A stretch of 64,000 bases of DNA, taken from a virus. Each line of letters opens with the position of its first letter. Position 1 is the stretch's first letter. The translations under genes were made by a program, and so were the position numbers. This document shows positions 10,141 to 53,066 of the stretch, in pieces. Location of the stretch: IMG/VR virus record IMGVR_UViG_3300009609_000001, positions 36,268 to 100,267 of that record; one strand, 5' to 3'. The notes below the pieces were generated by a model. That model worked only from the letters and a program-made list of their open reading frames with translations. It had not been told where the DNA came from and ran no database searches.

Positions 10141-10220
10141 CGTCGACCACTCCCTTCGCCACGATCCCTTCGTGTCCGATCCATCGCCCCGGCTACGGCG
10201 CCAGGGCTGTCCAAAACGCC

Positions 10221-10484
10221 TCAAACCTCCCCCGAATCCACTCCCAGCGCCCCGTAGAACAAATCCGTCGAGATGTGCTCCGGTACTTTCAGGTCCAGTC
10301 GAATTGCGCCGCGAATGACCGGGTTCACAATGCCATCCTCTGCCGCCAACTTGATCGCTTTCTTCTCCGCCGTCGCAAAGCCGCGGGCCTCGATCACGTA
10401 GCGAGCGACAATGGGAACGTCCATAATGCGACGCTCGTTAGTTCGCGAGCCGATCATTACTTCAATGCGTTTGGTCCGTTTCAT
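10221..10484 (-). CDS. Hypothetical protein, 87 aa
   Basis: Basic N-terminus (MKRTKRIEVMIGSRT) with mixed alpha/beta character. Starts at an ATGA overlap with the upstream gene; the longer open frame 5' of this ATG lies within that gene. Not recognised. Confidence 0.7.
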   Translation of the reverse strand: MKRTKRIEVMIGSRTNERRIMDVPIVARYVIEARGFATAEKKAIKLAAEDGIVNPVIRGAIRLDLKVPEHISTDLFYGALGVDSGEV

Positions 10485-10942
10485 TTCAATTTCCCCAACC
10501 CCACCAGCCGCTTCTCGATCGCCAACAACAGGTCCATGCCCAGCAGTTCCCAGCCTTGGCAGTAGTCCCAATGGACGCCCCTGACGTTGGCAATCCGTTC
10601 CGCCAACTGATGCAGCGGCGTGGCCTCGTGCTCAGCTTGCGCCAGCTCTTCGGCTTCGCGTTCGGCGGCCTCTTGCTGCTCTTTGGCGAGCCGCGCCGCT
10701 TCGGCGTCCGCGAGGTGCTTGTCGATAGTGGCGGGGTCGGTGCTGACGATGTAGTTATCGAAGCCGACTTGTTTGCCGGTGGCTCGCGTGAACAGATCGG
10801 TGCCACCATCCGTATGTTTGGCTAACAAATTGTTCGACGTACTCCAATGCCGTAGCAATTCGATGACTTCCCACACGTCGCCTTTCGAGTCCAGGAACCG
10901 CGTGCCCACGGGCAAGTCGTATTTGGGTGGTTTGGTGGTCAT
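10481..10942 (-). CDS. Helical protein, 153 aa
   Basis: N-terminal beta-rich part (PKYDLPVGTRFLDSKGD) followed by a long Ala/Glu helix (ADAEAARLAKEQQEAAERE) likely to form a coiled coil. ATG 10942 is preferred to a TTG two codons earlier and has a GAGAAG site. Not recognised. Confidence 0.7.
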   Translation of the reverse strand: MTTKPPKYDLPVGTRFLDSKGDVWEVIELLRHWSTSNNLLAKHTDGGTDLFTRATGKQVGFDNYIVSTDPATIDKHLADAEAARLAKEQQEAAEREAEELAQAEHEATPLHQLAERIANVRGVHWDYCQGWELLGMDLLLAIEKRLVGLGKLK

Positions 10943-10944
10943 GT

Positions 10945-11232
10945 TCAACTTCTCAAAGCGTTGTCGAGCCGCCCAATCAGCGTGAGCTTCGCGGCCACGT
11001 ATCGCGGATTTGTCGGCGCGTCCTCAAATCCTTCGGGTAGTTGCTCGACAAGTTGATTGCGCCACAACTGGACAATCTCCCGAAGCTCCCGCAACTTCTC
11101 GCGCAGTGCCGCAATCTCGCCCTCGAAGTCCCTGCCAAGAATCGCGGCTTCAATCTGCGACCAATGCTTGTGCGTTCGCGCGCATTCCTCGGTCAGCCAA
11201 CCGGGATTGGGCTTGAAAACTTCAACTTGCAT
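10945..11232 (-). CDS. Coiled-coil protein, 95 aa
   Basis: GEIAALREKLRELREIVQLW is a strong heptad repeat; flanks are hydrophilic. Compact leftward operon member with no gap to its neighbours. Not recognised. Confidence 0.7.
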   Translation of the reverse strand: MQVEVFKPNPGWLTEECARTHKHWSQIEAAILGRDFEGEIAALREKLRELREIVQLWRNQLVEQLPEGFEDAPTNPRYVAAKLTLIGRLDNALRS

Positions 11233-11238
11233 TGATTG

Positions 11239-11463
11239 TTACTCCCCGTGGATCGCTTCCGACGCCAACTCCGTCGCCTCAATCGCCTCTTTGAGCTGCG
11301 TCTCAAGTCGCTCGCGGATGTTCGCTGGGAACGCATCCGGCAGGGCTTCCAGGACGGTTTGCACGTTGCCAACCGCCATACGGCACTCGCTTAGCGCATG
11401 CACGACGCACGCGATCCTCGCCTGTAGGCTCTTGCTCTCCGGGAACTCGTGTCGCTTTGCCAT
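11239..11463 (-). CDS. Small helical protein, 74 aa
   Basis: Predicted all-helical (MAKRHEFPESKSLQARI, then ETQLKEAIEATELASEAI). Six bases upstream of the next gene. No recognisable family. Confidence 0.7.
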   Translation of the reverse strand: MAKRHEFPESKSLQARIACVVHALSECRMAVGNVQTVLEALPDAFPANIRERLETQLKEAIEATELASEAIHGE

Positions 11464-11468
11464 GTTCG

Positions 11469-16559: not shown

Positions 16560-16837
16560 AGCGCTGTTTCCTTCCGTTGCTGATGCCGCACAAGCCAGTC
16601 CCGCATGATCTCCGGGCTGCCCCAACATCCTGCCGGCGCGTGCGAATCGAACCACAGCAAGATTTCGCGCAGCCGCACGAGGTTGTCGTTGTCCGCGCGA
16701 ATCACGGCCAAGCGAAGATCGTTGATAATCACCGCACGCAGGAAGCTGCCGGGCTGGATGCCATGCTCGATGTAGAGTTTCATCCCGTCGCGTAAGAGCG
16801 GCGGGAGCTTGTCGTAAGGCAGGCTCATGGTGTCCAT
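16556..16837 (-). CDS. Conserved small phage protein, 93 aa
   Basis: LPPLLRDGMKLYIEHGIQPG then SFLRAVIINDLRLAVIRAD and a C-terminal WLVRHQQRK. This L-R-x-G-M...G-I-x-P-G-S-F-L-x-A-V-x-x-N-D pattern recurs in many phage genomes as an uncharacterised short protein. GAGGA site before ATG 16837. Confidence 0.75.
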   Translation of the reverse strand: MDTMSLPYDKLPPLLRDGMKLYIEHGIQPGSFLRAVIINDLRLAVIRADNDNLVRLREILLWFDSHAPAGCWGSPEIMRDWLVRHQQRKETAL

Positions 16838-16838
16838 T

Positions 16839-17069
16839 TCAATTCATCCTCGCGCTCAATCTCTCAATCCCCTGCTCGAGCGCATCGGCCGCGATCCGGT
16901 AGGCATCGATGATCGGCGCTCCGTTGGACTTCAGTTCACACCGCGAGACAGGCTTGCCGTCCGCTCCAGACTCTTGCTCGATCACCACCAGCACAATGCA
17001 CACACCCGCTGCGCTGGCGGCTGTGCCCAGGTCGTTCAGTGCGAGTTGTACGGTGGCCGGGAGGGTCAT
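16839..17069 (-). CDS. Hypothetical protein, 76 aa
   Basis: Small mixed domain (MTLPATVQLALNDLGTAASA, VCIVLVVIEQ, then a helical end ALEQGIERLSARMN). ATGA overlap with the upstream gene. Not recognised. Confidence 0.7.
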   Translation of the reverse strand: MTLPATVQLALNDLGTAASAAGVCIVLVVIEQESGADGKPVSRCELKSNGAPIIDAYRIAADALEQGIERLSARMN

Positions 17070-17377
17070 TTCGGCAACGTCTCCCGTTCCTCTTTCACAG
17101 TCCGAACCATAATCGCCAGCGCCATCAGCCAGTCGTCGTAAATCGCCGCTGCATCCCAGCCGCTCGCCTGTGGCACGGGTCGCGGCAACAGCGCCCGCAA
17201 AAACCCGTCATCCTCATCAGGTGAGACTTCCGGCCCGTCGTGACGTGCGCGGCGACCGGAGCCCAGTAGCCCGGCGTCGTCCAGGCGTTGGCGGATTAGC
17301 TCGTCCGTCGCGGCCAGGAATCGCTCGGCGTCGTGGGCTTTGTCTTGCCAGCGGGTGCGGTCGGTGGAGGTAATCAT
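17066..17377 (-). CDS. Hypothetical protein, 103 aa
   Basis: Starts MITSTDRTRWQDKAHDAERF with GAGGAG upstream and an ATGA junction; helical N-terminus, acidic middle (PEVSPDEDDGF), and a C-terminal helix (DDWLMALAIMVRTVKEERE). Not recognised. Confidence 0.7.
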   Translation of the reverse strand: MITSTDRTRWQDKAHDAERFLAATDELIRQRLDDAGLLGSGRRARHDGPEVSPDEDDGFLRALLPRPVPQASGWDAAAIYDDWLMALAIMVRTVKEERETLPK

Positions 17378-17877
17378 GTGGCGGTCTCCTCGCATTTCCA
17401 CTCGTATACCGGCTCGGTTTTCGTGCCGACCTGCACTCGCTTGCAAATGGCTCCGTCTTTCGTCGGGAACGCCATAACGCGAAGTCTGTACGCGTACCAC
17501 TCGTTGTGCGTGCGCTCGCCAGTTGCCGGGTTGATGGTCGATGTATTTTCTCCGCTGCAAATCAATGCGTAGGTACGTCGCTCGATTTCGTGGTAATCTT
17601 CCGGCGGCTTGTCCTTGTCGGTGTGCCAGCCACGCGAAGCCAGATCGCGGAATAGCGGAATCAATTCGTCGAAGCTCTTGACGTAAACCATGATCGCAAT
17701 GAACGGCTCGCGGCACGCCCACTGAGTTACGGAAACCTTTGGTTCAAACTGCGGGAACAGGTCGGCCACGGCATGTGCCATGCGCGCCACGTCCGACAGC
17801 AACTCGGCTTTGATGCGGAGCGCGTCAAGCTCGTCGAACTTGGCCTGGATAGCAGGAGGGACGGATTTACTTGCCAT
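17374..17877 (-). CDS. Hypothetical protein, 167 aa
   Basis: Helical first third (AIQAKFDELDALRIKAELLS) and a beta-rich remainder with ALICSGENTST and YAYRLRVMAFPTKDG. The start at 17877 has GGAG at normal distance. Overlaps the upstream gene by 11 bases. Not recognised. Confidence 0.7.
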   Translation of the reverse strand: MASKSVPPAIQAKFDELDALRIKAELLSDVARMAHAVADLFPQFEPKVSVTQWACREPFIAIMVYVKSFDELIPLFRDLASRGWHTDKDKPPEDYHEIERRTYALICSGENTSTINPATGERTHNEWYAYRLRVMAFPTKDGAICKRVQVGTKTEPVYEWKCEETAT

Positions 17878-18079
17878 CGTTGTTCTCCAATTCCGCCGCC
17901 TTGAGCAGCAGTTGCCGTTGTAGGGCTTCGCAGTCGGTCGCGGCTTGACGTAGTTCGACGATTGCATCCGCATGGCCACGCCTGCGCAAATCGCTTGCCT
18001 TGTCGATGCGACTGCGAATGACGACTGCGCCGTTGCTGAGCGTGCTGAAGTGGACGCGGGTGGTTAGTTTGGTTGCCAT
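17867..18079 (-). CDS. Small hypothetical protein, 70 aa
   Basis: MATKLTTRVHFSTLSNGAVV then a basic helical region (RRRGHADAIVELRQAATDCE). It follows a GC-rich stem with a T run that ends about 12 bases before its ATG, so its expression may be attenuated. Not recognised. Confidence 0.65.
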   Translation of the reverse strand: MATKLTTRVHFSTLSNGAVVIRSRIDKASDLRRRGHADAIVELRQAATDCEALQRQLLLKAAELENNDGK

Positions 18080-18177
18080 GTTTGTTCTAAAAACGCCGCC
18101 GCCTTACTCGTGGTTCGTGCCTCACCTTTCGGTGATTCGGCTAGTTCGGCTTGCGGCTCTTGAGAGCCTATGGGCAT
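18064..18177 (-). CDS. Possible 37-aa peptide inside a structured leader
   Basis: From ATG 18177 the frame MPIGSQEPQAELAESPKGEA continues to AAAFLEQTWQPN and overlaps the start of the next gene. Composition is protein-like, but there is no clear ribosome site, and the same bases can be explained as an RNA hairpin region, so I give it low weight. Confidence 0.3.
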   Translation of the reverse strand: MPIGSQEPQAELAESPKGEARTTSKAAAFLEQTWQPN

Positions 18178-18214
18178 TGCGCTTCGGGCTTCAACCTTTT
18201 GGGGCGGCGGCGTT
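18087..18214 (-). promoter_or_regulatory. Structured leader with terminator-like stem
   Basis: Complementary arms at 18092-18103 and 18203-18214 (ACGCCGCCGCC type) enclose about 100 bases with a small hairpin (GGCTC-TTGA-GAGCC). On the minus strand the second arm is followed by TTTTT and, 12 bases later, the next ATG. The layout resembles an attenuator. Confidence 0.45.
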
Positions 18215-18270
18215 GGTTCCTTTCGTTGGGCCTCCCGCAGAAGCGCCGCGGGTCGCTTGGGTCGTGGTGG

Positions 18271-18489
18271 CTAGTTCACAGCACACCGCTCATTGGCGAG
18301 CTTTACAGCCAGCCTGATTTGAGCGGCCGTCAGTCCCGCATTGCCGCGGTCAAGAGCGTTCGCAAAGCCAAGTAACTCACCAGCGGCTTGCGGCCATAAG
18401 ACTTTCCGCTCATGGTCGGTTGATGCCGGGAAGTCCGGTATCGGCTGTGCAAAAAAATCAGGATTGATAGTTGGTTTTTCTGGCGGCAT
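18271..18489 (-). CDS. Small hypothetical protein, 72 aa
   Basis: Pro-rich start (MPPEKPTINPDFFAQPIPDF), then helical AAGELLGFANALDRGNAG and IRLAVKLANER. Start shares bases with the upstream stop (TGATG). Not recognised. Confidence 0.7.
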   Translation of the reverse strand: MPPEKPTINPDFFAQPIPDFPASTDHERKVLWPQAAGELLGFANALDRGNAGLTAAQIRLAVKLANERCAVN

Positions 18490-18638
18490 CAGTGCGTGAC
18501 CTTTCCGATACAGGCGAGAATCCCGCGGCGCGCCAGGAATCGTTGCCTGGCCTGCGCCTCTTCAAGCGTCTGGAATTCGTCGATAGTCGCGCTGTCCACG
18601 TCGTCCGACCATCGCAGTTGGTAGAAGGGGAATTTCAT
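18489..18638 (-). CDS. Very small protein, 49 aa
   Basis: MKFPFYQLRWSDDVDSATID then EFQTLEEAQARQRFLARRG, a compact beta-then-helix sequence with good coding character, ending in a TGATG junction with the next gene. Function unknown. Confidence 0.65.
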   Translation of the reverse strand: MKFPFYQLRWSDDVDSATIDEFQTLEEAQARQRFLARRGILACIGKVTH

Positions 18639-18691
18639 CGTTTCGTTTTCCTTGTCCTTGCCCCGCGGCCATTGCGGGTGCGGGAGGGGGG

Positions 18692-19603
18692 TTAGGGTGC
18701 ATCGACGATTCCGCCACTTGCGGCCAAGTCATCGTAGGATTGCTTGTTAGCTCGGCACTTCCGGCAGAGGGTTTCACCTGCCGAGAACAACTTGAACGGC
18801 TCGCTGCATTCGTCGCATTGGGCCATAGGCTGGCGTGGTGTCAGCCGAACATGCTCGGCAACTTCATCGGGAACCGTGGGGCGGTTGGCTGGCGGTTGGC
18901 CACGGGCGCGAGACAGTTCCTTTATGTCCGATTCGTCCACTGCCGATGCGCGCCATTCGTCCAGTTTGCGGAGCGTCCTTTCTTCGCCACGCTCCAGCAG
19001 CAAATGCCACTGATAGGCGTCGGCCGGACTGGCGTTTCCACCGGCAGCAATGAGAGCGGCAGCCCTCTCTTGGTGCGTCATGCTGTTCCACCACGCCATA
19101 CCGGCCGCTTCATCGACCACACTTCCGCCAACGCAAACGTGTTCACGCTGCGGAAGTTCCTCATTCTCCGTGTCTGCCGTGAATTTGCCGCGCGCTACGG
19201 ACTCTACGATGGCTTCGGCCTGTGCGTTTCCTGCGTCACGGCACACGTCACACGACCCGTAGCCGATTTGGACCTTGCAGGTACGGCAGTAATCGTCGTC
19301 AAAGCATGGGTCATTGTCGGGGTCCGCCTGCGCGTCCTTGTAGGCCCGGTTGCACGGCTCGCACCAGTCGCCTTCCTTGACGCCGTGCTCGCAGACGCTG
19401 CCGCCAATCCAGGAGAACAGCGAGACAACATCGTCGCCGGATTGTTCCAAGCCAGTGTCGATGTATTCCCAGCGGACGTTCCTGCCTTGTTCGTCTTTGG
19501 AGTCGAACCACAGGCCATCTGGCTTGCGGTTCGTGTTCCTCTCGGTCTTGTCGAGGTGATAAATGGCTCCGTCCATCGGACCATCGACGCATTGAAGAAT
19601 CAT
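18692..19603 (-). CDS. Multi-Cys hypothetical protein, 303 aa
   Basis: Three parts: an N-terminal beta-rich segment (MILQCVDGPMDGAIYHLDKT), a Cys-rich middle (CEHGVKEGDWCEPC, CRTCKVQIGYGSCDVC), and a C-terminal zinc-ribbon (CDECSEPF...CRKCRANK). Looks like a fusion of several small zinc modules. Start fixed by an ATGA junction. Not recognised. Confidence 0.75.
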   Translation of the reverse strand: MILQCVDGPMDGAIYHLDKTERNTNRKPDGLWFDSKDEQGRNVRWEYIDTGLEQSGDDVVSLFSWIGGSVCEHGVKEGDWCEPCNRAYKDAQADPDNDPCFDDDYCRTCKVQIGYGSCDVCRDAGNAQAEAIVESVARGKFTADTENEELPQREHVCVGGSVVDEAAGMAWWNSMTHQERAAALIAAGGNASPADAYQWHLLLERGEERTLRKLDEWRASAVDESDIKELSRARGQPPANRPTVPDEVAEHVRLTPRQPMAQCDECSEPFKLFSAGETLCRKCRANKQSYDDLAASGGIVDAP

Positions 19604-40143: not shown

Positions 40144-41898
40144 ATGATGAACGCACAACACCCCGCTGGTGAAGAAATCCAGGCAGGCGAACACGTGGGC
40201 CTCGATACCGATGGGAAGCTCAAGGAGATCGACAACTCTCGCCGGCTCAAGATTCTCCGCGCCGATCGGCAACTGTTGGTCGAGTGCTTCGCGGCGCTGC
40301 GGCAGTTCCGCTACCTGAACCTGCCCAAGATTCAATCCGTGCCGGCCGATGCCGAGGTTGTGGACATCCGCGAAGATTGGGATTCTCGCTCCCTGAGCAT
40401 CCTGCTGCGACACCCGTCGTTTGAACGCGTGCCAGACGGGGCGTGCATTCCGTACATCGAGAATGAGTACGTGACCGCCTTCGAGAACATCCCGCTGGAA
40501 AAGTCGCTGCTGGTCGTTCGGCACGCTCCCGGCGCTCCGGATTCATTTCGCGAGTCCGTGGCAGAGATTTCAAAAACCGTTGGTCAGCACATCGTTTTGA
40601 TGCCGCACGGGTATGAGATTGAATCTCTGGACGACGAAAAGCTGGCAGAGATTGGCTTGCAGCGCGTAGATCAGCCCAGCGGTGCAACCTACGGCAAGTC
40701 GCCAGTTACCCTATTCGCGGAGTTGCGGGCCGAAAACGAATCCTTGCGGAAAGAGTTCCGGCTGTTCGCGCTGGCCGTGTGCGAAATGCACGGTGGATTG
40801 GTCGCCATTGACGATCGCACGATGCACGCGATTAGTCCAACCGATACGCTGATGGTCCACGCAGACGAAGCGAACCGGCGGGTTGTGTACAGTCGGAGCG
40901 AGCAAACGACCAGGGGCTTTCCGCCCACGTCTCCAGAGCTGCGCCGGATGCAAGTCGATCAGGCGCGGGAAAGCGTCGGATTGCCGCCGATCGAATGGCC
41001 AGATGCACCGTTGCCCTACGATGCCGCGCAATTCGAGCGCGACTACGCCACGGCTTCCGGGCTGACCATTGAACAGAATCGAGAGCTGGGCCTGCGCGTC
41101 GAGCCGTGCGACTGCGGAGAGGGCGGGTGCAAGGGCTTCAAGATGGCGCATTCTCCGCCCGACGCCGGGATTGCTCTGGTCAACGCCATGAGCCACGCCA
41201 CGCGGCGGATTGCCCGGCGGCTCGTGGCGGAGCGCGAGCAGGCGGCGCAAGAGGCGATTCTGAAATCCGACGGCGGCACAACGGCCGTTCCGCCGATCGA
41301 CTCGCCGTGGGACACCTCGCGCAACATCCGTTCCGCCGTGGAACGTGCCGAGGCACGGCTCGTGAGGCAGCAAGTCAGCCTCACTGCGGAGCAAGCGGCT
41401 GCGGCGTACAAAGGCGATACGCGGCCAATTCCCGGTCGAATTGGCACACTGGGCATCATCAAGACCGATACGCCAGGCGAGCCGGTCGTGACGCGCCCCT
41501 TTAATGATCGTAGTATCCCGGATCCTGGCATTGTCCCGTGGGCAGAACAGCCGATGTTGAAGGCCGCGCCGTGGGCCGAAGAAATGTTGGCGGATGCGTT
41601 CAAGTCTGGGGAAGCGAGCCCTGCGTCACCATGCGAACCGCTGGCCGCTCGCTCAACGGAACATTCAATAGAAACCAGCGTAGGCGCAGCAGGTGAAGTT
41701 CGGTTGCCCTGTCCTAGTCGCGCAGGTCTCCTGGGGTCTGAGCGCGCGACATCAGCGAATCCCCGCGGGATGCGGTTCGAATCCGCCGATACGCTGGCTG
41801 ATAATCCCTGCCCCGAGTGCAAAGGCAGCGGAATCTATCAAGGGTTTAGCGTAGAAGAAAAGTGCAAAAACTGCGGAGGAACAGGAGCAGTATGTTAG
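40144..41898 (+). CDS. Large mosaic protein with C-terminal DnaJ-type zinc finger, 584 aa
   Basis: Modules in order: a short beta domain (IQAGEHVGLDTDGKLKEI), helical and alpha/beta stretches, a Cys cluster (CDCGEGGCKGFK), a KGDTRPIPGRIGTLGIIKTD linker, and a C-terminal CPECKGSGIY / CKNCGGTGAVC zinc finger. Looks like several small phage domains fused; function unknown. Two ATGs (40144, 40147); first used. The HNH gene directly downstream ends in a related CRACGGSGVK tail. Confidence 0.75.
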   Translation: MMNAQHPAGEEIQAGEHVGLDTDGKLKEIDNSRRLKILRADRQLLVECFAALRQFRYLNLPKIQSVPADAEVVDIREDWDSRSLSILLRHPSFERVPDGACIPYIENEYVTAFENIPLEKSLLVVRHAPGAPDSFRESVAEISKTVGQHIVLMPHGYEIESLDDEKLAEIGLQRVDQPSGATYGKSPVTLFAELRAENESLRKEFRLFALAVCEMHGGLVAIDDRTMHAISPTDTLMVHADEANRRVVYSRSEQTTRGFPPTSPELRRMQVDQARESVGLPPIEWPDAPLPYDAAQFERDYATASGLTIEQNRELGLRVEPCDCGEGGCKGFKMAHSPPDAGIALVNAMSHATRRIARRLVAEREQAAQEAILKSDGGTTAVPPIDSPWDTSRNIRSAVERAEARLVRQQVSLTAEQAAAAYKGDTRPIPGRIGTLGIIKTDTPGEPVVTRPFNDRSIPDPGIVPWAEQPMLKAAPWAEEMLADAFKSGEASPASPCEPLAARSTEHSIETSVGAAGEVRLPCPSRAGLLGSERATSANPRGMRFESADTLADNPCPECKGSGIYQGFSVEEKCKNCGGTGAVC

Positions 41899-41904
41899 AA
41901 TGTC

Positions 41905-41941
41905 GGGCGGGCCGCAGCCTGCAATGCTGCGGACACCGCCC
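41905..41941 (+). repeat. Strong hairpin before an HNH gene
   Basis: GGGCGG pairs with CCGCCC outside CCGCAGC pairing with GCTGCGG. It lies between the stop of the large gene and the AGGAGG of the HNH gene and may insulate or attenuate the inserted gene. Confidence 0.65.
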
Positions 41942-41972
41942 TAAACACTGTCACCTTCTTAGGAGGCGAGCA

Positions 41973-42695
41973 ATGCCTGAAAAGCATTCTACAGCGACAC
42001 GCCAAAGGCCACAGCGCGGAGATTTGACCGGGAGAAAGTTCCGGCTCTTGATGGTTATCAAGTATGTCGGCAGGGACAAAAACAGGAACAGCCTTTGGCT
42101 GTGCCATTGTGAATGCGGCAAAGAAACGATCACATGCTCGGCCTATTTGAAAAACGGCGACACTAAATCTTGCGGGTGCCTAAATTCCAAGACGACGGTA
42201 GCTAGGAACACCACGCATAATTTGTACGGCACTCCAGAGCACAGAAACTGGACGGCAATGATCGCAAGGTGCGAAAACCCAAACGTCAAGGTGTTCCACA
42301 ACTACGGTGGGCGAGGCATCCGCGTGTGTGAGCGATGGAGAACATCGTTCGCAGCGTTCTATCAAGACATGGGTCTAAGACCAACGGCTCAGCACACAGT
42401 GGATAGGTTCCCTGATCCAGACGGCAACTACGAACCGGACAACTGCCGATGGGCAACAAGGGCGGAACAAAGTCGCAATCAGAAAAGGAATCGCTTGCTC
42501 ACGTTTAATGGGAAGGTGCGATGCCTTCAGGATTGGGCCACCTTGAGCGGAATTAGTGCAGCGTCGATTTCCAAGCGACTCAAGAAAGGCTGGACAGTCG
42601 AGCAGGCACTATCGACTCCGACCAGAGGAAAGCCCGGATCGGGCCTGAACCAGACCGAAGATTGCCGCGCGTGCGGCGGGAGCGGCGTGAAGTGA
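41973..42695 (+). CDS. HNH homing endonuclease, 240 aa
   Basis: Same architecture as 5726 and 62814: GDLTGRKFRLLMVIKYVGRD, CHCECGKETITC, KSCGCL zinc knuckle, then YGGRGIRVCERWRTSFAAF and VDRFPDPDGNYEPDNCRWAT. Its last residues, EDCRACGGSGVK, belong to a DnaJ-type finger and not to the nuclease family, suggesting it was inserted into, or fused to, the end of a zinc-finger gene. Stop overlaps the next start (GTGA). Confidence 0.85.
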   Translation: MPEKHSTATRQRPQRGDLTGRKFRLLMVIKYVGRDKNRNSLWLCHCECGKETITCSAYLKNGDTKSCGCLNSKTTVARNTTHNLYGTPEHRNWTAMIARCENPNVKVFHNYGGRGIRVCERWRTSFAAFYQDMGLRPTAQHTVDRFPDPDGNYEPDNCRWATRAEQSRNQKRNRLLTFNGKVRCLQDWATLSGISAASISKRLKKGWTVEQALSTPTRGKPGSGLNQTEDCRACGGSGVK

Positions 42696-43183: not shown

Positions 43184-43203
43184 GGTATCAGATTCCCTGA
43201 GCC
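43184..43203 (+). promoter_or_regulatory. Leader hairpin element, copy a (portal gene)
   Basis: GGTA-TCAG-ATTCC-CTGA-GCC. A following stem (GAGC...ACGC with GCGT...GCTC) ends directly at the portal ATG. First of seven copies; see the copies at 50101, 51485, 51971, 58876, 61432 and 63491. Confidence 0.7.
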
Positions 43204-43236
43204 ACGCAAAGCCATTCACCCTGGCCGCGTGTGCTC

Positions 43237-44892
43237 ATGCCATCCATCAACGGCAGTAAATCCCGCCGAGACGATCCCGCCGGCAAGCATCGCGGCATCC
43301 CGCCAAACTTCGGCCGCGGCGTCGTTCCCCACGTTGCTACGTTCGTCGGCTTCATCTCCAGTTTCTCCAAGAGCTACCGGCCCAGCGACGAGGCCCTGCG
43401 GCATTCCATCGAGCAAGCCCGCTACATGCGGAACGACACCTCGATTATGGAATGCCTGGAGGCCCGCCAACGCGCTACGGCGCTGCTGAATTGGCACATC
43501 GAGCCGGAAGACGAGAAAGACCCGGAGCAAGTCGAGCTGGTCGAGAACCTGACGCGGATCGTGGAATTGACGCCGCGCTTCACGGAGTATCGACGCTGGC
43601 TCCTGGAAGCCATTTGGTTCGGCCGAGTGGCCAGCCAGAACATCTACGGCTGGGACATCCGACCCAGGCAGAAGAAACGCCTGTACGTCCGCCGCTGGAT
43701 GCCGATTCACGGCGACAAGCTGGTATTTCGCTTCGACGACGGGACCGGGAAGTACAGCGACGATCAAATCGGCATCAAGTACACGCAATTCGTCGATGCC
43801 GAGGATTTCAGCGGGCGATTCGAACTGGAGCCGACCGACTACGGCATGGCCTACTTCCTAAAGCCCTGGGAGCGGTCGCTGCTCACGGTCCATCGGCACA
43901 TGATCGAGGATGGGGCTTACGAGGATCCCCAGAGCGCCGGCAGAATCCACGGCGTCGGAATTCGGGACAGAATCTACTGGACGTGGTATCAAAAGCAAGA
44001 AGTGCTGGGGATGCTGATAGAACTGATCGAGCGAACCGGCATGGGGTTCAACATCTGGTATTACCCGGCCGGGAATGATCAGGCTTATCAGGACACCGTA
44101 GAAGCCGCCAAGAATCAAAGCGGCCAGAATGCCGTGCTGATTCCCCGCACTCCAGGTGACCCGGCGCTAGACGGCTACGGATATGACCGCATCGAGCCGT
44201 CGGGAAGTGGAATCCAGAACCTCAAGGATGTGATTCACGAGTTCTTTGGCCACCAGATCAAGCGCTACATCCTGGGGCAAACGCTGTCGAGCGAAGCGGA
44301 CGCCACGGGGCTGGGGAGCGGCGTCGCTGATTTGCACTTGGAATCCTTTCTGCAAATCGTCAAATACGACGCCACGAACTTGGAAGAGTCGATCACCACG
44401 GACCTGATCGAGCATCTCAAGCGGTTCAACTTCCCGGGGTCAAGTCATTTCCGGGTGAAGTTCAAGATCGACACGGAAGCCGCCGACGTGCAAGCCAAGC
44501 TGCAAGCCGTGTTCACCGCCTGGCAGATGGGCGCCGCTGTCCGCACGGCCGACGTGTTCGACATGATTGGCTTGTCGGTCCCTGGCCCGGATGATCAGGT
44601 ATTGGCCAATCCGCAGTTGCAACAGCAGCCGGCGCAGGAAGGGCAAGAGCCGCCGAAGTCTCCGCATCAAGCCGTCCTGGAAGCCCATTTGAACGAAGAG
44701 CCGAACGCGCACGGGGAATCTCCGCAGCAGGCGTTGCTTGAGGTCCTGACGCCCAGCAACAGCCCGGCGTCGGACGTGGCAGGCAAGGTGGTTCCACGGG
44801 GAGTAACGCGGCGGAGCGGGAATTGGAATATTACCCAGTACAATCGCAGCGGCTGGTCACGGGCGCTGAAGTTGTGGGGCGTGAGCATCTAA
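43237..44892 (+). CDS. Portal protein (DUF935/Mu gp29-like), 551 aa
   Basis: MRNDTSIMECLEARQRATAL and NWHIEP at the start, RRWLLEAIWFGRVASQNIY, then VIHEFFGHQIKRYILGQTLS and GVADLHLESFLQIVKYDAT match the DUF935 portal family. The dodecameric portal forms the DNA channel of the head. A C-terminal Gln/Pro-rich tail (residues about 455-505) may be flexible. ATG 43237 preferred to GTG 43231. Confidence 0.85.
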   Translation: MPSINGSKSRRDDPAGKHRGIPPNFGRGVVPHVATFVGFISSFSKSYRPSDEALRHSIEQARYMRNDTSIMECLEARQRATALLNWHIEPEDEKDPEQVELVENLTRIVELTPRFTEYRRWLLEAIWFGRVASQNIYGWDIRPRQKKRLYVRRWMPIHGDKLVFRFDDGTGKYSDDQIGIKYTQFVDAEDFSGRFELEPTDYGMAYFLKPWERSLLTVHRHMIEDGAYEDPQSAGRIHGVGIRDRIYWTWYQKQEVLGMLIELIERTGMGFNIWYYPAGNDQAYQDTVEAAKNQSGQNAVLIPRTPGDPALDGYGYDRIEPSGSGIQNLKDVIHEFFGHQIKRYILGQTLSSEADATGLGSGVADLHLESFLQIVKYDATNLEESITTDLIEHLKRFNFPGSSHFRVKFKIDTEAADVQAKLQAVFTAWQMGAAVRTADVFDMIGLSVPGPDDQVLANPQLQQQPAQEGQEPPKSPHQAVLEAHLNEEPNAHGESPQQALLEVLTPSNSPASDVAGKVVPRGVTRRSGNWNITQYNRSGWSRALKLWGVSI

Positions 44893-44906: not shown

Positions 44907-45290
44907 ATGGAACGCAGGTCTTTCTTTGGAATGTGCATCGCGGCGATGGGTGGACTGCTTGGGACGCGCTCTGCCAAGCCGGAATTCAAGGGATCGGTTG
45001 TTGAGTGGCAGGGCGAGACCGGCACCCTGTCAAAGCCGCTGGAATCAGCCAAGCCGCTGGAATCAGCCGACCCATTTGAGGTAGTCGATGTCATGTACAT
45101 CGGCGAAGTTTTTGATGCCAATGGCGAAAGTGTCGATTGCATCACGCTACCGGTTCGCCGGATCGACGTGGATCGTTTTGGACGGGCCAGCAATTGGATG
45201 CGCGAAAATCTGACGACGACACCAAGTCGCGAGTGTCCTAAGCACGGAGATTTGATTTACGCAAAGCCGATCGGCGACAAGACAGCGTAA
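44907..45290 (+). CDS. Signal-bearing small protein, 127 aa
   Basis: MERRSFFGMCIAAMGGLLGT resembles a short twin-arginine or lipoprotein-like signal (RR-S-F-F, hydrophobic core). KPLESAKPLESADP comes from a direct duplication of 18 bases. Rest is beta-rich and ends with CPKHGDLIYAKP. Exported or head-associated; unknown. Confidence 0.65.
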   Translation: MERRSFFGMCIAAMGGLLGTRSAKPEFKGSVVEWQGETGTLSKPLESAKPLESADPFEVVDVMYIGEVFDANGESVDCITLPVRRIDVDRFGRASNWMRENLTTTPSRECPKHGDLIYAKPIGDKTA

Positions 45291-45349
45291 GCCGCACCCA
45301 TAACCTTATATGTTGTGCAAGTTTTTGACCCACAAGGGGGGTATTGGCG

Positions 45350-48300
45350 ATGGGAGTGCTGACCGTCTCCGAAGCAATCCGCGTGCTCTACAAGCGGATC
45401 ACTCCCGCCGTTGGCCAGAAGGAGTTCTGGTCCAATGAACCGCGCGATGCCGGTGGAAAGTGGACGACTCCGGCACATGAGGCTGTGGCACGACCAAAGG
45501 ACGACGACGAGCATTTTAAGTTGAGCGATCGCCCGTCGCCAAAGTTCGAGCCGCTTGTCGAGGATCCTCCTCGGGACGAGAAACAGCCGCCACCACAACA
45601 CGAACCACTCCCGGGTCAGAAGGAGATGTTCGGCGCGACGGTGTCTGCAAAGACCAAGCCGGCCACCAACGAAGCCCTCTGCGCCCGCATCAAGTCCGGC
45701 GACAGCGGGGCCGAGGATGCCCTGCTGAAACAGAATCAGGGTCTGGTCTACAGCATTGCCCGGCGATACACGCGCACCCCCGGCGATCTTGAGGACTTGG
45801 CCCAGGAAGGAAATATCGGCCTTCTGGAAGCCGCCCGGCGCTTCGACCCTGAGAAGGCCAAGCATTTTTCGACCTATGCCAACCTCTGGGTGCTGGCCAA
45901 GGTGGGAAACTACGCCAAGAAATCCTGGAAGCAGTCCACCACGCAAGTAGGTGGCGACGACGACGAAAGTTCTATCGACGATCTAGCCGTGGACACCGGG
46001 GACACCTCGCCTGGATCTGGACTGGAAACATCGGAGTCACAAGACAAGCTGCGCGCCGCGGTGGCAACGCTTCCTGAGCGAGAAGCCCTGGCGGTCCGAC
46101 TGCGGTTTGGTCTTGAAGGTAACGAACCGCACGAGTTCGAAGAGATCGGAGACAAGTTGGGCATCTCTCGGCAACGGGCGCACCAGATCACCGAGAAGGC
46201 GATGGAGAAGCTTCGCCGCACGATGAAATACCGGCGCGTGGCGGACGTGCTCAAGGCGCTATATGCGAAGAAGCACAAGCCCGCAGCCAATCAGGCGTCG
46301 ATGTGGGGAGAAGAACAAGAGAAGCTCCATCCCCGCGATGAGGGCGGGAAGTGGACGCACGCGCAAATGAGCGTCGCCAAGAAAGCCGTCGAGCACATGA
46401 AGGGCAAGTTGCACGGCCCGAAGAGTAAAGAGGACCTTGTGTTTGCGGCCGGCGATCACTACTTCAACGATTCCGAGGCACGAAAGCACTTTGATTCACA
46501 CAAGCATTTTCAGGAGGGCGTGAAGGCGCATTTGGAAACGTCGGAGCAACAGGCTGCGCCAGAACAGTCGGCGGCAAAAGAGCCGCACGAAATGACGCTG
46601 GACGAGTGGGTCCAATCGATGATTGGCAAGCCATATAGAAACGGCACCACGGGAGAAAATGCGGTCTATAACGAATTGGACTTGGCCCGCCTCAATCAAC
46701 TGCACGAGAATCATGTCGCCACCGAACTGATTCACGGGGGAACGGTTCTGCCCGAAGTGCTGGCCGATTATCCCGACCTGCAGCCGAAGGCCACCGAGAA
46801 GCCTCAAAACATCACCGGTAGATACTCCCGCACCCTCTCCACCCGCGACGCCCTGCGCAAGGTCATGTACGCCTCATACCGCGGGAGCGCATTCGTCGTT
46901 CCAAAGATGGTATCCCTACAGCCGCCAAAACCTGGCGTTGGCCAAAAGCACTTCGGATTCGCAGGCGATTCGGGAGTGCATCAGCCGCCGCAGGACCCGG
47001 AGTTCGAAAAGCTCCATCCTCGTGGAAAAGGCGACAAGGGCGGCCAGTTCGCCGAGAAGCCGGAAGGCGAGAAGGCAAAGGACGATGCCGAGAAGAAAAC
47101 CGAGAAGCCGGCAGCAGAATCAGCGCCACACCCTCTGGCGGCCAAGCATGCCGAGGCCAAGAAGCACGTCACGGTCCCTGGATCAGTCACGCTGTTGAAG
47201 CACGGTTCGGAGTTTCACGCCTTCGGGGACGATGCGGCCAAGCTGGCGGAACATGGCATTGGCGACGGTCAACACGCTCACTTCGGTATGGGGGAGTTAA
47301 ATCGGCACTTGACGAATCTGACGGGCAAAGGCCAGCGTGTGGCGATCGCCGAACCTCGCGGGAAAGAGCCGGTCGCCGAACCTCCAAAGCCGCCGAAACC
47401 GGAGCCGATTCCGGCCGAGCGCCCCCCTGCGATAGCACCGCCTGCCAAAGCCGCGCCAGCTCGCCGCGTTGCACCAGCGCCGGCCGTCAAGGCACAGGCG
47501 ACAAATCCACCACAGCAGCATCCCAGCGTCCAGCAAGCTCTGCGCGACCTGGAACAAAAGCACGGACTGAGGAAGTCTCCGCCGCATCAATCGGACGTTC
47601 AACTTGCGCCGGAATCGCCATCCAAGCCGCAATCCGTCAAGGAAATCATCGCATCCGTTCACGCCAAGCATGGATTGCCACCGCGAGCGAAGCCGGCACC
47701 ATCCAAGCCGCCAACCTCAATGACCCTGGCCGACATCGCCGCATGGAACAAAGCCGGACACTTGAAGATTCCGTCAAGCGTCACGTTGGCTGGCATCCAA
47801 GAACGCATGGCCAGCCGGCAATACGAGCCCGTCACCATCGCCAAGCAGAAAGACGGCACGCTGGCGGTCATCGGCGGAGCGGAAAGCCTGCTGGCTGCGG
47901 CCAAGAATCACGAGAAGCAAGTCGCCGTACGACTTTCGGACAATGCCCACAAGCACTTCGCACAGAACTCTCCCAAACCAAAGGTAGATCCGGAGAAGAT
48001 TGCCAAGGGAGTGAGCGCCATCAAAAGCCGCCTGATGAGCATTTCTGACCATTCCCCGATTCACGAGCGGGTGCATCAATCGCTTGGAACGAAGTCCGTC
48101 CGGGAAGTCGAGCAGCGATTGGACGCCGCGGCGCAATCCGGCGACATGAGCACACTAAAGGCAGTCGAGCAAGCCATCTGGCCGGATCGATACCCGAAGT
48201 CCACAAAACAAACGCTGTCCGACCTGTTCAAGAAATCCCATCAGCCGTCGTCGGAAACTCCAACCCCAGCACCGCACGAGACCCCCTCGGCATACGAGGA

Positions 48301-50077
48301 TTGGCTGCCATCTGAATTTCACCAGAACATTGCCAGCATTTCTCAAGAGCACGGCATCGACCCGGGCGACCTGCGCGAAGCAGTGGATGACCTGCACCGG
48401 GAATCCGTTGATGGCTGGCGAGAGCGTTTGAACATGTTCAACGCCTACCAAAGCAAAGGCATGACCCCCAGCAGCCTCAATGCCTGGCAGGAGTCCGGCA
48501 AGGACTTGGAAGAGTACCCCGGCATGGATGAAGCGGTAGCCAGATTCTCCGGGACGTGGGGCGAGCACGGCGGGTATGGCGCTGGCCAATTCAACGTCGG
48601 CAAGTCCAGAACCAGCGCTGCCGTAGACAGCCCAACAGAGCAATTCGTCGCCATGATGCTGGCGGGCCGGCCGCGGAAGCCGGTCAAGGACGAGGGGATG
48701 ATTCGCACGGCCGCCGCACAAGTTAAATCAGCGCAGCAGTATCGTCCGGCTAGTGGCGAGCAAGTTCCGTTCTCGCGCGAAGGCCGGAAAGAGCGATACC
48801 TGCGGGACCTTTGTGAGCATGTGAACAAAGCGGCCGGTGACTGCCACCCAAATCCCAGCGATCCGCAACGAAAAGCCGGAAACTTTCGCAAGGGCCACGT
48901 ATGGGTGCATGGCCTGCCCATCAGCATCGAAACCGCTAAGGGATTCAAGCGCTGGCCCGGGGGACCGCCTCTGGCTGCGCACTACGGCTACATCAAGGGG
49001 ACCAGCAGCCGCGACGACCAGCAGCTTGATGTATTCGTTGGCCCCGTGCCGTCGAGCCAAATCGTATTCCTGATCGACCACCGCAGAAAGAGCGGGCGAT
49101 TCGACGAGACGAAGGTCCTCATTGGTTTTTCCAGCCGAGAGCAAGCCGTCAAGGCGTATCTCTCGTCCTATCCTCCGGGCCGCAGGGCATTCCCGTTGAC
49201 CAAAATGACGATCTGGCAATTCAAGGCCTGGCTCAAGGAGGGCGACCAGCGTACCCCGGTCGAGCGACAGGTGAGCAAGTTCGCGCGGTCGCCAGCGGAC
49301 GTGCTCAAGCAGCTTTACAAAAAGATCAAGCCAGCCACCGGGCAGATCGGACTATTCGCTCCGCATCCCGCCAAAGCCTCAGTGCAGCATACCGCCACGG
49401 TCGCGCTGCCCGAGCCCAACTTCACCGGCGTTATCAAAGACAGCCTCGGCCGCGAGCAACACTACGTTGACGGCGTGCATGTGGCCGGGCCGCAAGATGC
49501 GGAGACGCCGAAGCCGGTCAAAAAGATCGAGCCAAAGCCTCGGCAGAAGTCCATGTTCGACGATGACGTGCAATGGGTCGAGGTCAACAACACCCACGTC
49601 GCGATTGAGCCGGATGGAAAGATCGTCCACGGTCCGGAAGGCATGGAAGGCAAGCAGATCGACGAGATCGAGAAGGTGGAGGAGCCAACGGATGTTATGG
49701 CCGAATCGTCGGAAGACACCGTAACGGAACCATCGCCATCTCCCTGGAAACTCTCCCGGGGCGACTTTCACAAGCAGCAGAAGCCGGGCTACGACGTTGC
49801 CGCCACGAACCGCGAACACAGGGAATCGGTCGAGCAAGCCCTGGCAGAAGGAAAGGATGTTCCCGCTGAGGCATATCGGGATTACGCTGATTTGAAGCCA
49901 AAGGCCAAGACGGTTGAGGAGGCGATTCGGGGCGTGGTGGCTCCGAAACCGATAGCGAGCGCTGCGGAACCAAGTACAATAGGATTGGAAGGCGGTCAAG
50001 AGCGTGCGCGAGGCACTGGTGGGGATTTCCTCCGTATGACGCAAAAACCGTTGACAAGTCAGCCGCAAAAAGCCTAG
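45350..50077 (+). CDS. Giant modular (polyvalent-type) protein with sigma-70, ParB-like and pyrophosphatase-like domains, 1575 aa
   Basis: Residues about 120-190 are sigma-70 region 2 (NQGLVYSIARRYTRTPGDLE, DLAQEGNIGLLEAARRFDPE, FSTYANLW). Residues 241-290 are region 4 (LPEREALAVRLRFGLEG, then IGDKLGISRQRAHQITEKAM). An acidic 45-residue linker replaces region 3. About 790-863 is ParB-like (YEPVTIAKQKDGTLAVIGGA, signature DGHHR lost). About 1140-1300 is a pyrophosphatase-like domain of polyvalent proteins (AHYGYIKGTSSRDDQQLDVF, DETKVLIGFSSREQAVKAY). A V-L-x-x-L-Y-x-x-x-x-P-A-x-x-Q motif recurs at about 5, 297, 498 and 1314. Position between portal and scaffold suggests head packaging and injection. 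Confidence 0.85.
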   Translation: MGVLTVSEAIRVLYKRITPAVGQKEFWSNEPRDAGGKWTTPAHEAVARPKDDDEHFKLSDRPSPKFEPLVEDPPRDEKQPPPQHEPLPGQKEMFGATVSAKTKPATNEALCARIKSGDSGAEDALLKQNQGLVYSIARRYTRTPGDLEDLAQEGNIGLLEAARRFDPEKAKHFSTYANLWVLAKVGNYAKKSWKQSTTQVGGDDDESSIDDLAVDTGDTSPGSGLETSESQDKLRAAVATLPEREALAVRLRFGLEGNEPHEFEEIGDKLGISRQRAHQITEKAMEKLRRTMKYRRVADVLKALYAKKHKPAANQASMWGEEQEKLHPRDEGGKWTHAQMSVAKKAVEHMKGKLHGPKSKEDLVFAAGDHYFNDSEARKHFDSHKHFQEGVKAHLETSEQQAAPEQSAAKEPHEMTLDEWVQSMIGKPYRNGTTGENAVYNELDLARLNQLHENHVATELIHGGTVLPEVLADYPDLQPKATEKPQNITGRYSRTLSTRDALRKVMYASYRGSAFVVPKMVSLQPPKPGVGQKHFGFAGDSGVHQPPQDPEFEKLHPRGKGDKGGQFAEKPEGEKAKDDAEKKTEKPAAESAPHPLAAKHAEAKKHVTVPGSVTLLKHGSEFHAFGDDAAKLAEHGIGDGQHAHFGMGELNRHLTNLTGKGQRVAIAEPRGKEPVAEPPKPPKPEPIPAERPPAIAPPAKAAPARRVAPAPAVKAQATNPPQQHPSVQQALRDLEQKHGLRKSPPHQSDVQLAPESPSKPQSVKEIIASVHAKHGLPPRAKPAPSKPPTSMTLADIAAWNKAGHLKIPSSVTLAGIQERMASRQYEPVTIAKQKDGTLAVIGGAESLLAAAKNHEKQVAVRLSDNAHKHFAQNSPKPKVDPEKIAKGVSAIKSRLMSISDHSPIHERVHQSLGTKSVREVEQRLDAAAQSGDMSTLKAVEQAIWPDRYPKSTKQTLSDLFKKSHQPSSETPTPAPHETPSAYEDWLPSEFHQNIASISQEHGIDPGDLREAVDDLHRESVDGWRERLNMFNAYQSKGMTPSSLNAWQESGKDLEEYPGMDEAVARFSGTWGEHGGYGAGQFNVGKSRTSAAVDSPTEQFVAMMLAGRPRKPVKDEGMIRTAAAQVKSAQQYRPASGEQVPFSREGRKERYLRDLCEHVNKAAGDCHPNPSDPQRKAGNFRKGHVWVHGLPISIETAKGFKRWPGGPPLAAHYGYIKGTSSRDDQQLDVFVGPVPSSQIVFLIDHRRKSGRFDETKVLIGFSSREQAVKAYLSSYPPGRRAFPLTKMTIWQFKAWLKEGDQRTPVERQVSKFARSPADVLKQLYKKIKPATGQIGLFAPHPAKASVQHTATVALPEPNFTGVIKDSLGREQHYVDGVHVAGPQDAETPKPVKKIEPKPRQKSMFDDDVQWVEVNNTHVAIEPDGKIVHGPEGMEGKQIDEIEKVEEPTDVMAESSEDTVTEPSPSPWKLSRGDFHKQQKPGYDVAATNREHRESVEQALAEGKDVPAEAYRDYADLKPKAKTVEEAIRGVVAPKPIASAAEPSTIGLEGGQERARGTGGDFLRMTQKPLTSQPQKA

Positions 50078-50165: not shown

Positions 50166-51464
50166 ATGCCTGCAACCTTAGCTCCAATTCGCACGCCTCC
50201 TCTGGACGAATACTCCGTCGAGCACGACGTGCCGATCTTCACGGAGCACACCATCGAGGTCGAGGGCGACAGCGGCGAGAAAGAGTCCGACTGCTACGGG
50301 CTGAAGGAACTCCAGTACATCACCGACAACCTGAACAACCGCATCGAGGATACCGGCGACTTCGTGCCGATCGTCGTCGGGCACACCGACCCGGAAGATA
50401 AATCGGTCAAGCCGCCTGTCGTGGGGTTCGCCGGCCCGTACAAGATCGGGCGTTTCGGCCGAACGAAACCGCGATGGGCCATCTTTGCTGAAAATTGGTG
50501 GACGCGCAAGGATCCCGCCACGGTCGAGCTAATCAAGCAGCATCCGCGGCGCTCCGTCGAGCTGTGGCGAGAGGATCGCTACGAGGATCGGTTCTTTGAC
50601 CCGATCAGCCTCCTGGGCGCAGACACGCCTCGTCTGGACCTGGGATTGATGTTCAGCCGAACCAGCGGCAAGAAGATTCGCCGCTACTCCGCCGTGGCAC
50701 CCAGCGGCACCAATACTTTCGCTCCGACGTTCGGGGATGAAAAGAAGAAGCTCAATTACGCCGGCCCAGAGCCGGACGACATTTCCTCCGAGGAGGGCGA
50801 TATGCCTAGCGTCGATGAAATCGTTCAGGCCCTGGAACAAACCGACGTTTTTCAGTGGGCGCGCGGGAAGATGGCCGAGGAATCCGGCGTTGGTGGCGAT
50901 GCCGATGACGCTGCGCCTCCTGAGGCTCCGCCTGCCGCCCCGCCACCAGCCAATCCGCCGCCCGGCGATCAGGAGAACATGAACATGCCCTACGCCAGAA
51001 CCGGCGACAAGGACCGCTACGCCCGCCTGGAGCGTGAGTTGCGGGAAACGAAAGACTTGTACGCCAAGACGGACCGCGAGAACAAGGCCCTCAAGGATCG
51101 TCTCGACGCCAAGGACCAGGAAACGACTCGCGCCGTCCGATACGCCCGCCTGCAAGAGCTTTCCATGCAGCACGTCCTTGACCCCGAAGAGGAAATCGAG
51201 GAAGTGCTGGCGATGGACGACAAGACGTGGGACAAGCATCAGGATCGCATCCTGAACCGCTACGAGCGAATCCCCGCCGGCCGCGTGCTGCCCTACGAGC
51301 GCCCCGCGATGCTCAAGAGCGAAGCCGCTGATTCGGCCGCGGAGAAGGAAATCGCCGAAGAGGCCGCGAACCTGGTCACTTCCAAGCGGAACGCTGGCGA
51401 GAAGATCACCTACTCGGCCGCCCGTGAACTCGTTGTCCAGCAGCGCAAACAAAAGCGAGCCTAA
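50166..51464 (+). CDS. Head scaffold/protease-type protein, 432 aa
   Basis: VVGHTDPEDKSVKPPVVGFA then GPYKIGRFGRTKPRWAIFAE, TVELIKQHPRRSVELW resemble phage head protease/scaffold proteins that precede capsid genes. The C-terminal half has a Pro-rich spacer (about 250-275) and a coiled coil (DRYARLERELRETKDLYAKT, REDNKALK-like heptads), as scaffolds do. Placement before decoration and capsid genes agrees. Confidence 0.7.
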   Translation: MPATLAPIRTPPLDEYSVEHDVPIFTEHTIEVEGDSGEKESDCYGLKELQYITDNLNNRIEDTGDFVPIVVGHTDPEDKSVKPPVVGFAGPYKIGRFGRTKPRWAIFAENWWTRKDPATVELIKQHPRRSVELWREDRYEDRFFDPISLLGADTPRLDLGLMFSRTSGKKIRRYSAVAPSGTNTFAPTFGDEKKKLNYAGPEPDDISSEEGDMPSVDEIVQALEQTDVFQWARGKMAEESGVGGDADDAAPPEAPPAAPPPANPPPGDQENMNMPYARTGDKDRYARLERELRETKDLYAKTDRENKALKDRLDAKDQETTRAVRYARLQELSMQHVLDPEEEIEEVLAMDDKTWDKHQDRILNRYERIPAGRVLPYERPAMLKSEAADSAAEKEIAEEAANLVTSKRNAGEKITYSAARELVVQQRKQKRA

Positions 51465-51535: not shown

Positions 51536-51940
51536 ATGTCCGGTATCCCAGGTTTTCAAGGCGTGGCTGGCGGCGACATCAACACCAGCCGCTTCGTCAA
51601 GATTTCCACCGCCGCCAACAAGACGCTCTTGGAAGCAGGCGCTAGCGAGCGTTGCTTCGGCATCTCCCAGGAAGGCACGGCGCTGGCCCCGATCCCCAGC
51701 GCAAGCGGACTAGCGGCCGTCGCCGGCAATCCGATCCACGTCTACATCCCCGGCCAGTTCTGCTTGCTGAAGATCGGCTCCGGTGGGTGTGTCGCTGGTG
51801 ATCAGCTTGCTCCAGGAACCGACGGCAAGGGCGTCATCAACACCACGGACAAGCGCTGGACCGGTGCAATCGCCTTGGAAACCGCGTCCGAAGACGAGTT
51901 GGCGCTGGTCTACGTGATGGCCGGATTCAACGCGGCGTAA
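51536..51940 (+). CDS. Capsid decoration (DUF2190-like) protein, 134 aa
   Basis: RFVKISTAANKTLLEAGASE, CFGISQEGTALAPIP, GNPIHVYIPGQFCLLKIGSG, GDQLAPGTDGKGVINT and GAIALETASEDELALVYVM follow the DUF2190-like pattern of small beta-rich proteins beside capsid genes. Probably stabilises the capsid surface. Confidence 0.75.
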   Translation: MSGIPGFQGVAGGDINTSRFVKISTAANKTLLEAGASERCFGISQEGTALAPIPSASGLAAVAGNPIHVYIPGQFCLLKIGSGGCVAGDQLAPGTDGKGVINTTDKRWTGAIALETASEDELALVYVMAGFNAA

Positions 51941-52019: not shown

Positions 52020-53066
52020 GTGGCTGCTTACCCATCCGGTAGTAACACCTTCGTATTGAGCCACGACGCGACCCAGAACATGGTCGTGGACTTCGCCCGC
52101 AACATCGAGGATTTTGCGGTCAATGAGTACGTGCAAATTCGCAAGGTCGATAAGGTCGCCGGCTACTGGCTGCAAATGACAGTCGAGGAAGCCGGTCGCA
52201 TCCTGAACACGAACCTGGCCGACTTCGAGTGGGCGGATGGCACGGTCGATCCGGAAGCCAACGACGGAACCGAGTCGTTCGAGTTCCTGTCCTACCTGGC
52301 CAAGCGCTATCGCTTTGGATTCAACATGGGCTACCTGGCCAGTGGTCAGGCCGGCTGGGATATCATCGCCCAACACTCCAGCATCAAGGCCCGTCAGGCG
52401 ATGACGGCGCGCACCCAGAAGGTCGCCACGCTGTTGCAGACTTCCGGAAACTACGACTCCACGCACACCTCGGCGGTCGCGTCCATCACCGGCGTATCCG
52501 GAAAGTGGGACGTATCCACAACGGCGCGGTCTGACATCAAGCGGTCGCTCGATTACGCGGCGGACATCATCTACCGGGATACGCTCGGCGCGGTCAGCAA
52601 GAAGGACCTGAACCTGGTCGTTTCACCGGGCTGCTTGCGGAAGATGAGCGTCTCGCAAGAGATCGTCGATCTGCTCAAGGGTTCTCCCAGCGCCTACGGA
52701 TGGCTGCAAGGCGCACTGGCTGGAGAGAAGGTGGACTACGACGTTCCCAAGGAGCTGTACGGCTACCGCCTGGTGGTCGAGGGAGCGGTCAAGGTCACTT
52801 CCCGCAAGGGCGCCACCCGCGCCACGAGCTATGTCTGGAGTGACACGTCGCCAGCGCTCATCAGCCGCGTAGGCGCGTTGGAAGCCAAGATTCCTTCGCA
52901 GGCCCCCAGCTTCTCGACCTGCACGCTGTTCATGCAAGAGGAAATGACGGTCGAGACCCGCGATGAACCGGACAACCGGCGCACGAAGGGCCGCGTGGTG
53001 GAATGCTACGACACGAAGCTGACCGCGCCTTCGAGCGGGTTTTTGTTCACGTCGGCTGTGGCCTAA
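52020..53066 (+). CDS. Major capsid protein, 348 aa, GTG start
   Basis: N-arm (AAYPSGSNTFVLSHDATQNM), helical segment KARQAMTARTQKVATLLQTS, DIKRSLDYAADIIYRDTLGA (spine helix), NLVVSPGCLRKMSVSQEIVD (typical MCP probe-strand region) and a C-terminal beta tail. Size, position after scaffold and decoration, and the leader element support the call. AAGGAG precedes GTG 52020. Confidence 0.85.
   Translation: MAAYPSGSNTFVLSHDATQNMVVDFARNIEDFAVNEYVQIRKVDKVAGYWLQMTVEEAGRILNTNLADFEWADGTVDPEANDGTESFEFLSYLAKRYRFGFNMGYLASGQAGWDIIAQHSSIKARQAMTARTQKVATLLQTSGNYDSTHTSAVASITGVSGKWDVSTTARSDIKRSLDYAADIIYRDTLGAVSKKDLNLVVSPGCLRKMSVSQEIVDLLKGSPSAYGWLQGALAGEKVDYDVPKELYGYRLVVEGAVKVTSRKGATRATSYVWSDTSPALISRVGALEAKIPSQAPSFSTCTLFMQEEMTVETRDEPDNRRTKGRVVECYDTKLTAPSSGFLFTSAVA

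Follow-up and report, generated by a model that had tools for sequence, protein, structure and literature searches.

The 64,000-nucleotide stretch of viral DNA analyzed here (positions 36,268 to 100,267 of IMG/VR record IMGVR_UViG_3300009609_000001; hereafter the window) contains, in its structural region, a gene for a giant protein of 1575 residues in which an apparently complete pair of sigma-70 domains is embedded. Sigma modules within giant proteins of this phage and of two related ones suggest that the sigma factor enters the cell together with the DNA, and that the phage's own genes are in this way started at once. Phages that transcribe with the host polymerase are generally assumed to need the host sigma at their earliest promoters. 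With a sigma of its own in the particle, a phage would escape this dependence and could infect cells with an unsuited sigma pool (slow growth, stress); the known ejected effectors would also be joined by a factor for transcription initiation. A class of such virion-delivered sigma factors would be the sigma counterpart of the N4 virion polymerase.

The frame (45344–50077, plus strand) is open over 1577 codons counted from a TTG at 45344. The 1575-residue product (45350–50077) begins at the ATG at 45350, which is immediately preceded by AAGGGGGG. The original prediction, made from the sequence without database searches, placed sigma regions 2 and 4 within this protein, and both were recovered by Pfam. 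Sigma70_r2 (PF04542) covers residues 127–195 (45722–45928, plus strand; E-value=2e-17, 63.2 bits against a cut-off of 24) and Sigma70_r4 (PF04545) residues 239–291 (46058–46216, plus strand; E-value=1.8e-13, 50.2 bits against 24.1). In a search confined to the phage's own record the E-values were 2.2e-20 and 2.1e-16, respectively. The general sigma-70 model TIGR02937 (NCBIfam) gave 101.8 bits with a cut-off of 42.9, and a phmmer search of the PDB gave chains of SigA, RpoS and RpoD, with E-values of about 1e-25. Residues 104–303 were modelled with AlphaFold; both sigma domains are helical, with pLDDT above 90, and the linker between them is disordered. Among the PDB fold matches listed for this model there were sigma factors exclusively. 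The whole-chain TM score was about 0.38, a low value because the linker is disordered and the model leaves the mutual placement of the domains undefined. A chance similarity or a mis-read frame is ruled out by the E-values, the PDB and NCBIfam matches, and the model.

The segment joining the two regions (45941–46057, plus strand) had been described as an acidic linker which replaces region 3, and this description holds in part. In the phmmer alignment the linker DDDESSIDDLAVDTGDTSP pairs with region 3.2 of SigA, EEDDSHLGDFIEDQEATSP, making it the equivalent of the sigma finger; the missing part is therefore region 3.0/3.1. The module thus consists of regions 2, 3.2 and 4, and since no region 3.0/3.1 lies between region 2 and the 3.2-like linker, it is not a sigma factor of the RpoD type (group 1/2). 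For the comparison of single residues we used what we take to be the corresponding stretch of the E. coli protein, which agrees with the SigA alignment. The region 2.2 core contacts D403, Q406, E407 and N409 (E. coli numbering) are kept at residues 151, 154, 155 and 157, and the equivalent of M413 is a Leu. Of the residues involved with -10 DNA, N383, L386, F427, S428, T429, Y430 and W434 have equivalents in the module, W433 is replaced by Leu, and Q437 and T440 were not aligned. Loss of core-contacting or -10 residues, which the original prediction had named as the finding that would speak against it, was thus largely not seen: the core contacts are present and the -10 aromatics are retained in part. 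In region 4 the recognition helix has SRQRAHQI in place of the TRERIRQI of SigA, and the equivalents of E585 and R588 are unlike those of E. coli; judged from these changes, the -35 preference may differ from that of SigA. As the equivalents of W433, E585 and R588 differ from E. coli, the promoters recognized cannot be predicted, and when intergenic sequences were searched for dyads and k-mers that might mark a phage-specific promoter, no consistent -35/-10 pair emerged.

The remainder of the giant protein identifies it as a polyvalent protein. Residues 1175–1298 (48866–49237, plus strand) form an InPase domain (PF18823; Pfam E-value=4e-32), a known domain of polyvalent proteins. Two disparate kinds of domain, sigma regions 2 and 4 and InPase, are consequently combined in one chain, which is encoded among virion and packaging genes, between the portal and the matches to scaffold and major head proteins. 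The InPase motif, D(G)DHxDVFVGP in relatives, reads DDQQLDVFVGP in the window; the fold is kept, and from this comparison a metal-binding or catalytic Asp seems to have been lost, which warns that modules of the giant protein can decay. No single-subunit RNA polymerase catalytic domain was detected in the giant protein with Pfam or NCBIfam.

The sigma module is flanked by two copies of a recurrent linker, HPRDEGG(K)W/F, with the fuller form (F/W)..E.HPRDEGGKF/W. The first copy (KRITPAVGQKEFWSNEPRDAGGKW; 45383–45472, plus strand) precedes the module and the second (KKHKPAANQASMWGEEQEKLHPRDEGGKW; 46268–46363, plus strand) follows it. The same motif precedes the sigma module of a related phage (L107), and it occurs in giant polyvalent or portal-fused proteins of five further relatives. 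A fixed pattern for it gave nine matches among frames of at least 450 amino acids (0.31 million residues) and, among shorter frames (1.68 million residues), a single match to an unlike sequence. The relatives were gathered by their portal from viral and genome contigs. Most of the latter belong to MAGs of planctomycetes, which hints at a planctomycete host.

In ten relatives an InPase is fused to the portal itself (L003, L029, L032, L036, L037, L049, L081, L085, L088 and L189), as is an ART-PolyVal domain in L006. In the InPase fusions such domains are indeed part of a virion protein; together with the recurrent linkers, the portal fusions mark the giant protein as a cassette of modules that belongs to the portal locus. 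Among 70 portal frames, 35 have a C-terminal extension of at least 200 amino acids. Extensions of 1000–2160 amino acids were observed in L003 (9545–17884, a portal frame of 2780 amino acids), L022, L024, L027, L048 and L053, some of them with InPase, LPD1, ART-like or methyltransferase modules. One contig (L009) has two paralogous portal genes, at 9893–11464 and 16647–19190.

The gene neighborhood bears out the predicted position between portal and scaffold. On the 5' side lies a Mu-type portal protein (43231–44892, plus strand; PF06074, E-value=1.3e-40). On the 3' side, also on the plus strand, are matches to a head scaffolding protein (51536–51940; phrog_673, E-value=5e-9) and to a major head protein (52020–53066; phrog_1005, E-value=2e-8). 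The intervening gene (50166–51464, plus strand) specifies a 432 amino acid late protein with no family match, which might be a protease or scaffold. The giant gene and the portal gene occupy one unit bounded by an intergenic element that consists of GGTATYRGACCAACYRAGCC and a hairpin, an arrangement which fits a presumed joint, late expression of the two genes. A small ORF between them (44907–45290) starts with MERRSFFGMCIAAMGGLLG, which resembles a twin-arginine signal, and an HNH endonuclease with a CapR-like N-terminal match is encoded between terminase and portal (41862–42695).

Sigma modules in this setting are rare and recurrent. When IMG/VR was scanned with a sigma alignment, L107 ranked above all other loci, with 40% identity over about 190 residues. 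In L107, regions 2 and 4 share an open frame of 3235 or more amino acids with ART-PolyVal domains and a methyltransferase, and the phage has the same portal type (50% identity), fused there to InPase (L189). A third phage (L013) carries regions 2 and 4 in a 1060 amino acid protein encoded directly after a portal protein of 1533 amino acids. Among the 41 portal-clade records besides the window, region 2 was found in these two phages only. Sigma carriers thus number 3 of 42 records including the window, and since many of the records are fragments these absences carry little weight. All three region 2 domains form part of giant proteins, with no free-standing case, and a profile search of the 100-kb record from which the window derives found no region 2 besides that of the giant protein. 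The other viral sigma matches of the IMG/VR scan lie in frames of up to 665 amino acids, mostly 190–420. A 534 amino acid protein encoded shortly before the giant gene of L107 (L190, 7240–8841) has the motif HEFAH and the giant protein's GETMTKNGVTYVLNENHRW linker. It is a candidate zincin peptidase and could process the polyvalent protein.

In the sigma tree the window and L107 group together (95/87), with L013 apart on a long branch. At least two separate acquisitions of sigma by polyvalent proteins are, from this tree, possible but not proven. Planctomycete sigma factors which lack region 3 were considered as the source of the module and ruled out, because the tree joins the window with L107. 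Those of L096–L099 resemble it in that regions 2 and 4 are joined without a region 3.0/3.1 domain; they differ in being chromosomal, about 560–600 amino acids long with an N-terminal extension, and not nearest in the tree. Direct IMG/VR scans with the whole giant protein, or with its sigma region alone, returned no close relatives, and with the L013 protein as query the sole return was its own contig. A tblastn search of 50,697 annotated phage records with the giant protein gave at most 14% coverage among the matches listed, so that none of these joins sigma and InPase. Ten sigma matches from annotated phages were inspected and lie in frames of 164–564 amino acids.

Polyvalent phage proteins have been argued to be injected with the phage DNA and to jump-start transcription, and InPase is among their listed domains (Iyer et al. 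2017, PMC5512222). The giant protein shares with them its size, its combination of unrelated activities including InPase, its position among virion genes, and the portal fusions in relatives. It differs in that no sigma-70 domain is named there: the word 'sigma' is absent from that paper, in which the transcription module is an N4-type RNA polymerase. The N4 virion RNA polymerase (PMC12633501, a preprint) is likewise a giant, late-made protein with a transcription function, and its ejection with the DNA to start early genes, which we infer for the window, has been shown for N4. It brings a complete single-subunit polymerase, whereas the window encodes a specificity factor that needs host core; there is no homology. 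T4 Alt is packaged in the head and is believed to redirect the host's polymerase from the very start of infection, as we propose here; unlike our proposal, it is an ejected ADP-ribosyltransferase which modifies RNA polymerase and does not replace sigma (PMC5512222). Free-standing phage sigma factors, for example those of jumbo phages (PMC7824862), share the sigma-70 fold and differ in being separate genes, mostly of 190–420 amino acids, without polyvalent modules. In the passages of that survey found on the subject, sigma is a separate phage-coded factor and polyvalent proteins are treated apart. Phrase searches through 5.39 million papers for a virion-borne, packaged or injected sigma factor gave no match. 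As a component of polyvalent proteins, we regard sigma as a new type of effector, which is functionally like the N4 virion polymerase and not homologous to it.

We propose the following course of events. The giant gene would encode a string of effector modules between recurrent linkers, one of them a sigma-70 factor composed of regions 2, 3.2 and 4. The polyvalent protein would be made late together with the portal, enter the head near it, and be ejected along with the DNA. The sigma module, free or still tethered, would then bind host core RNA polymerase, and the loaded polymerase would be guided to early promoters of the phage at a stage when none of its genes has yet been expressed. That the protein is ejected and its sigma steers host RNA polymerase to early promoters seems to us slightly better than an even bet. 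We put at about evens the wider proposal of a class, in which the clade packages sigma-70 as a polyvalent module that sets host RNA polymerase before phage genes are read. Packaging, ejection, core binding and promoter choice are all what we infer for the module. Delivery with the DNA is supported indirectly, since many relatives have InPase fused to the portal, the sigma is housed in a polyvalent protein, and the clade includes two more phages with this arrangement. As the sigma domain is embedded in the giant chain, cleavage may be needed; no processing peptidase was found in the giant protein of the window.

Alternatively, the polyvalent protein, or a cleaved or internally started form of it, could act as a late sigma in the producing cell and serve the structural genes. 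This is the usual place of action of phage sigma factors in the literature, and the module is the sole sigma of the record and is located in the late block. We nevertheless consider a late role unlikely. A huge portal-linked product of the late operon would be an odd switch for that same operon, the 42 clade records contain no free-standing sigma genes, and in relatives other modules of the cassette are fused to the portal. An internal start might be read from the AAGGAG directly before an ATG at 45626 within the giant gene; the two abut with a spacing of zero, which makes such a start doubtful.

Perhaps the ejected module is instead a decoy, taking core RNA polymerase from host sigma without starting phage promoters. 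The region 2.2 core-binding residues are indeed better kept than those which read the -10 and -35 sequences, and cassettes of relatives carry host-modifying modules such as ART. Both DNA-binding regions and the region 3.2 finger, which a decoy would not need, are kept nonetheless, region 4 also in L013 and L107, and we judge the decoy distinctly improbable. Slightly less credible again is a degenerate remnant, or a structural element which binds DNA or portal and has no function in transcription. The sporadic distribution of the sigma domain in the clade and the apparent decay of the InPase in the same protein would agree with it. Against it, the sigma scores are as high as those of bona fide sigma factors, the core contacts are preserved, the structure is modelled with confidence, and polyvalent proteins of at least two different sequence lineages have a sigma module. 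The virion-delivered sigma factor remains our preferred reading.

The intergenic element, which was brought up by the promoter search, is present in six copies on the plus strand, at 43184, 50101, 51485, 58876, 61432 and 63491, shortly upstream of late-gene starts. Four copies were found by a 3-mismatch search, as against none in shuffled sequences. No copies were located in other loci, and the window gave no Rfam matches. The first hairpin is fully paired in every one of the six copies, and at two of its pairs both partners have changed (compensatory). There is an overlap between its 3' arm, GAGCC, and the 5' arm of a second hairpin, which in four of the six copies is terminator-like, with a T-run at its end. 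The arrangement is attenuator-like, and the element looks like an RNA structure.
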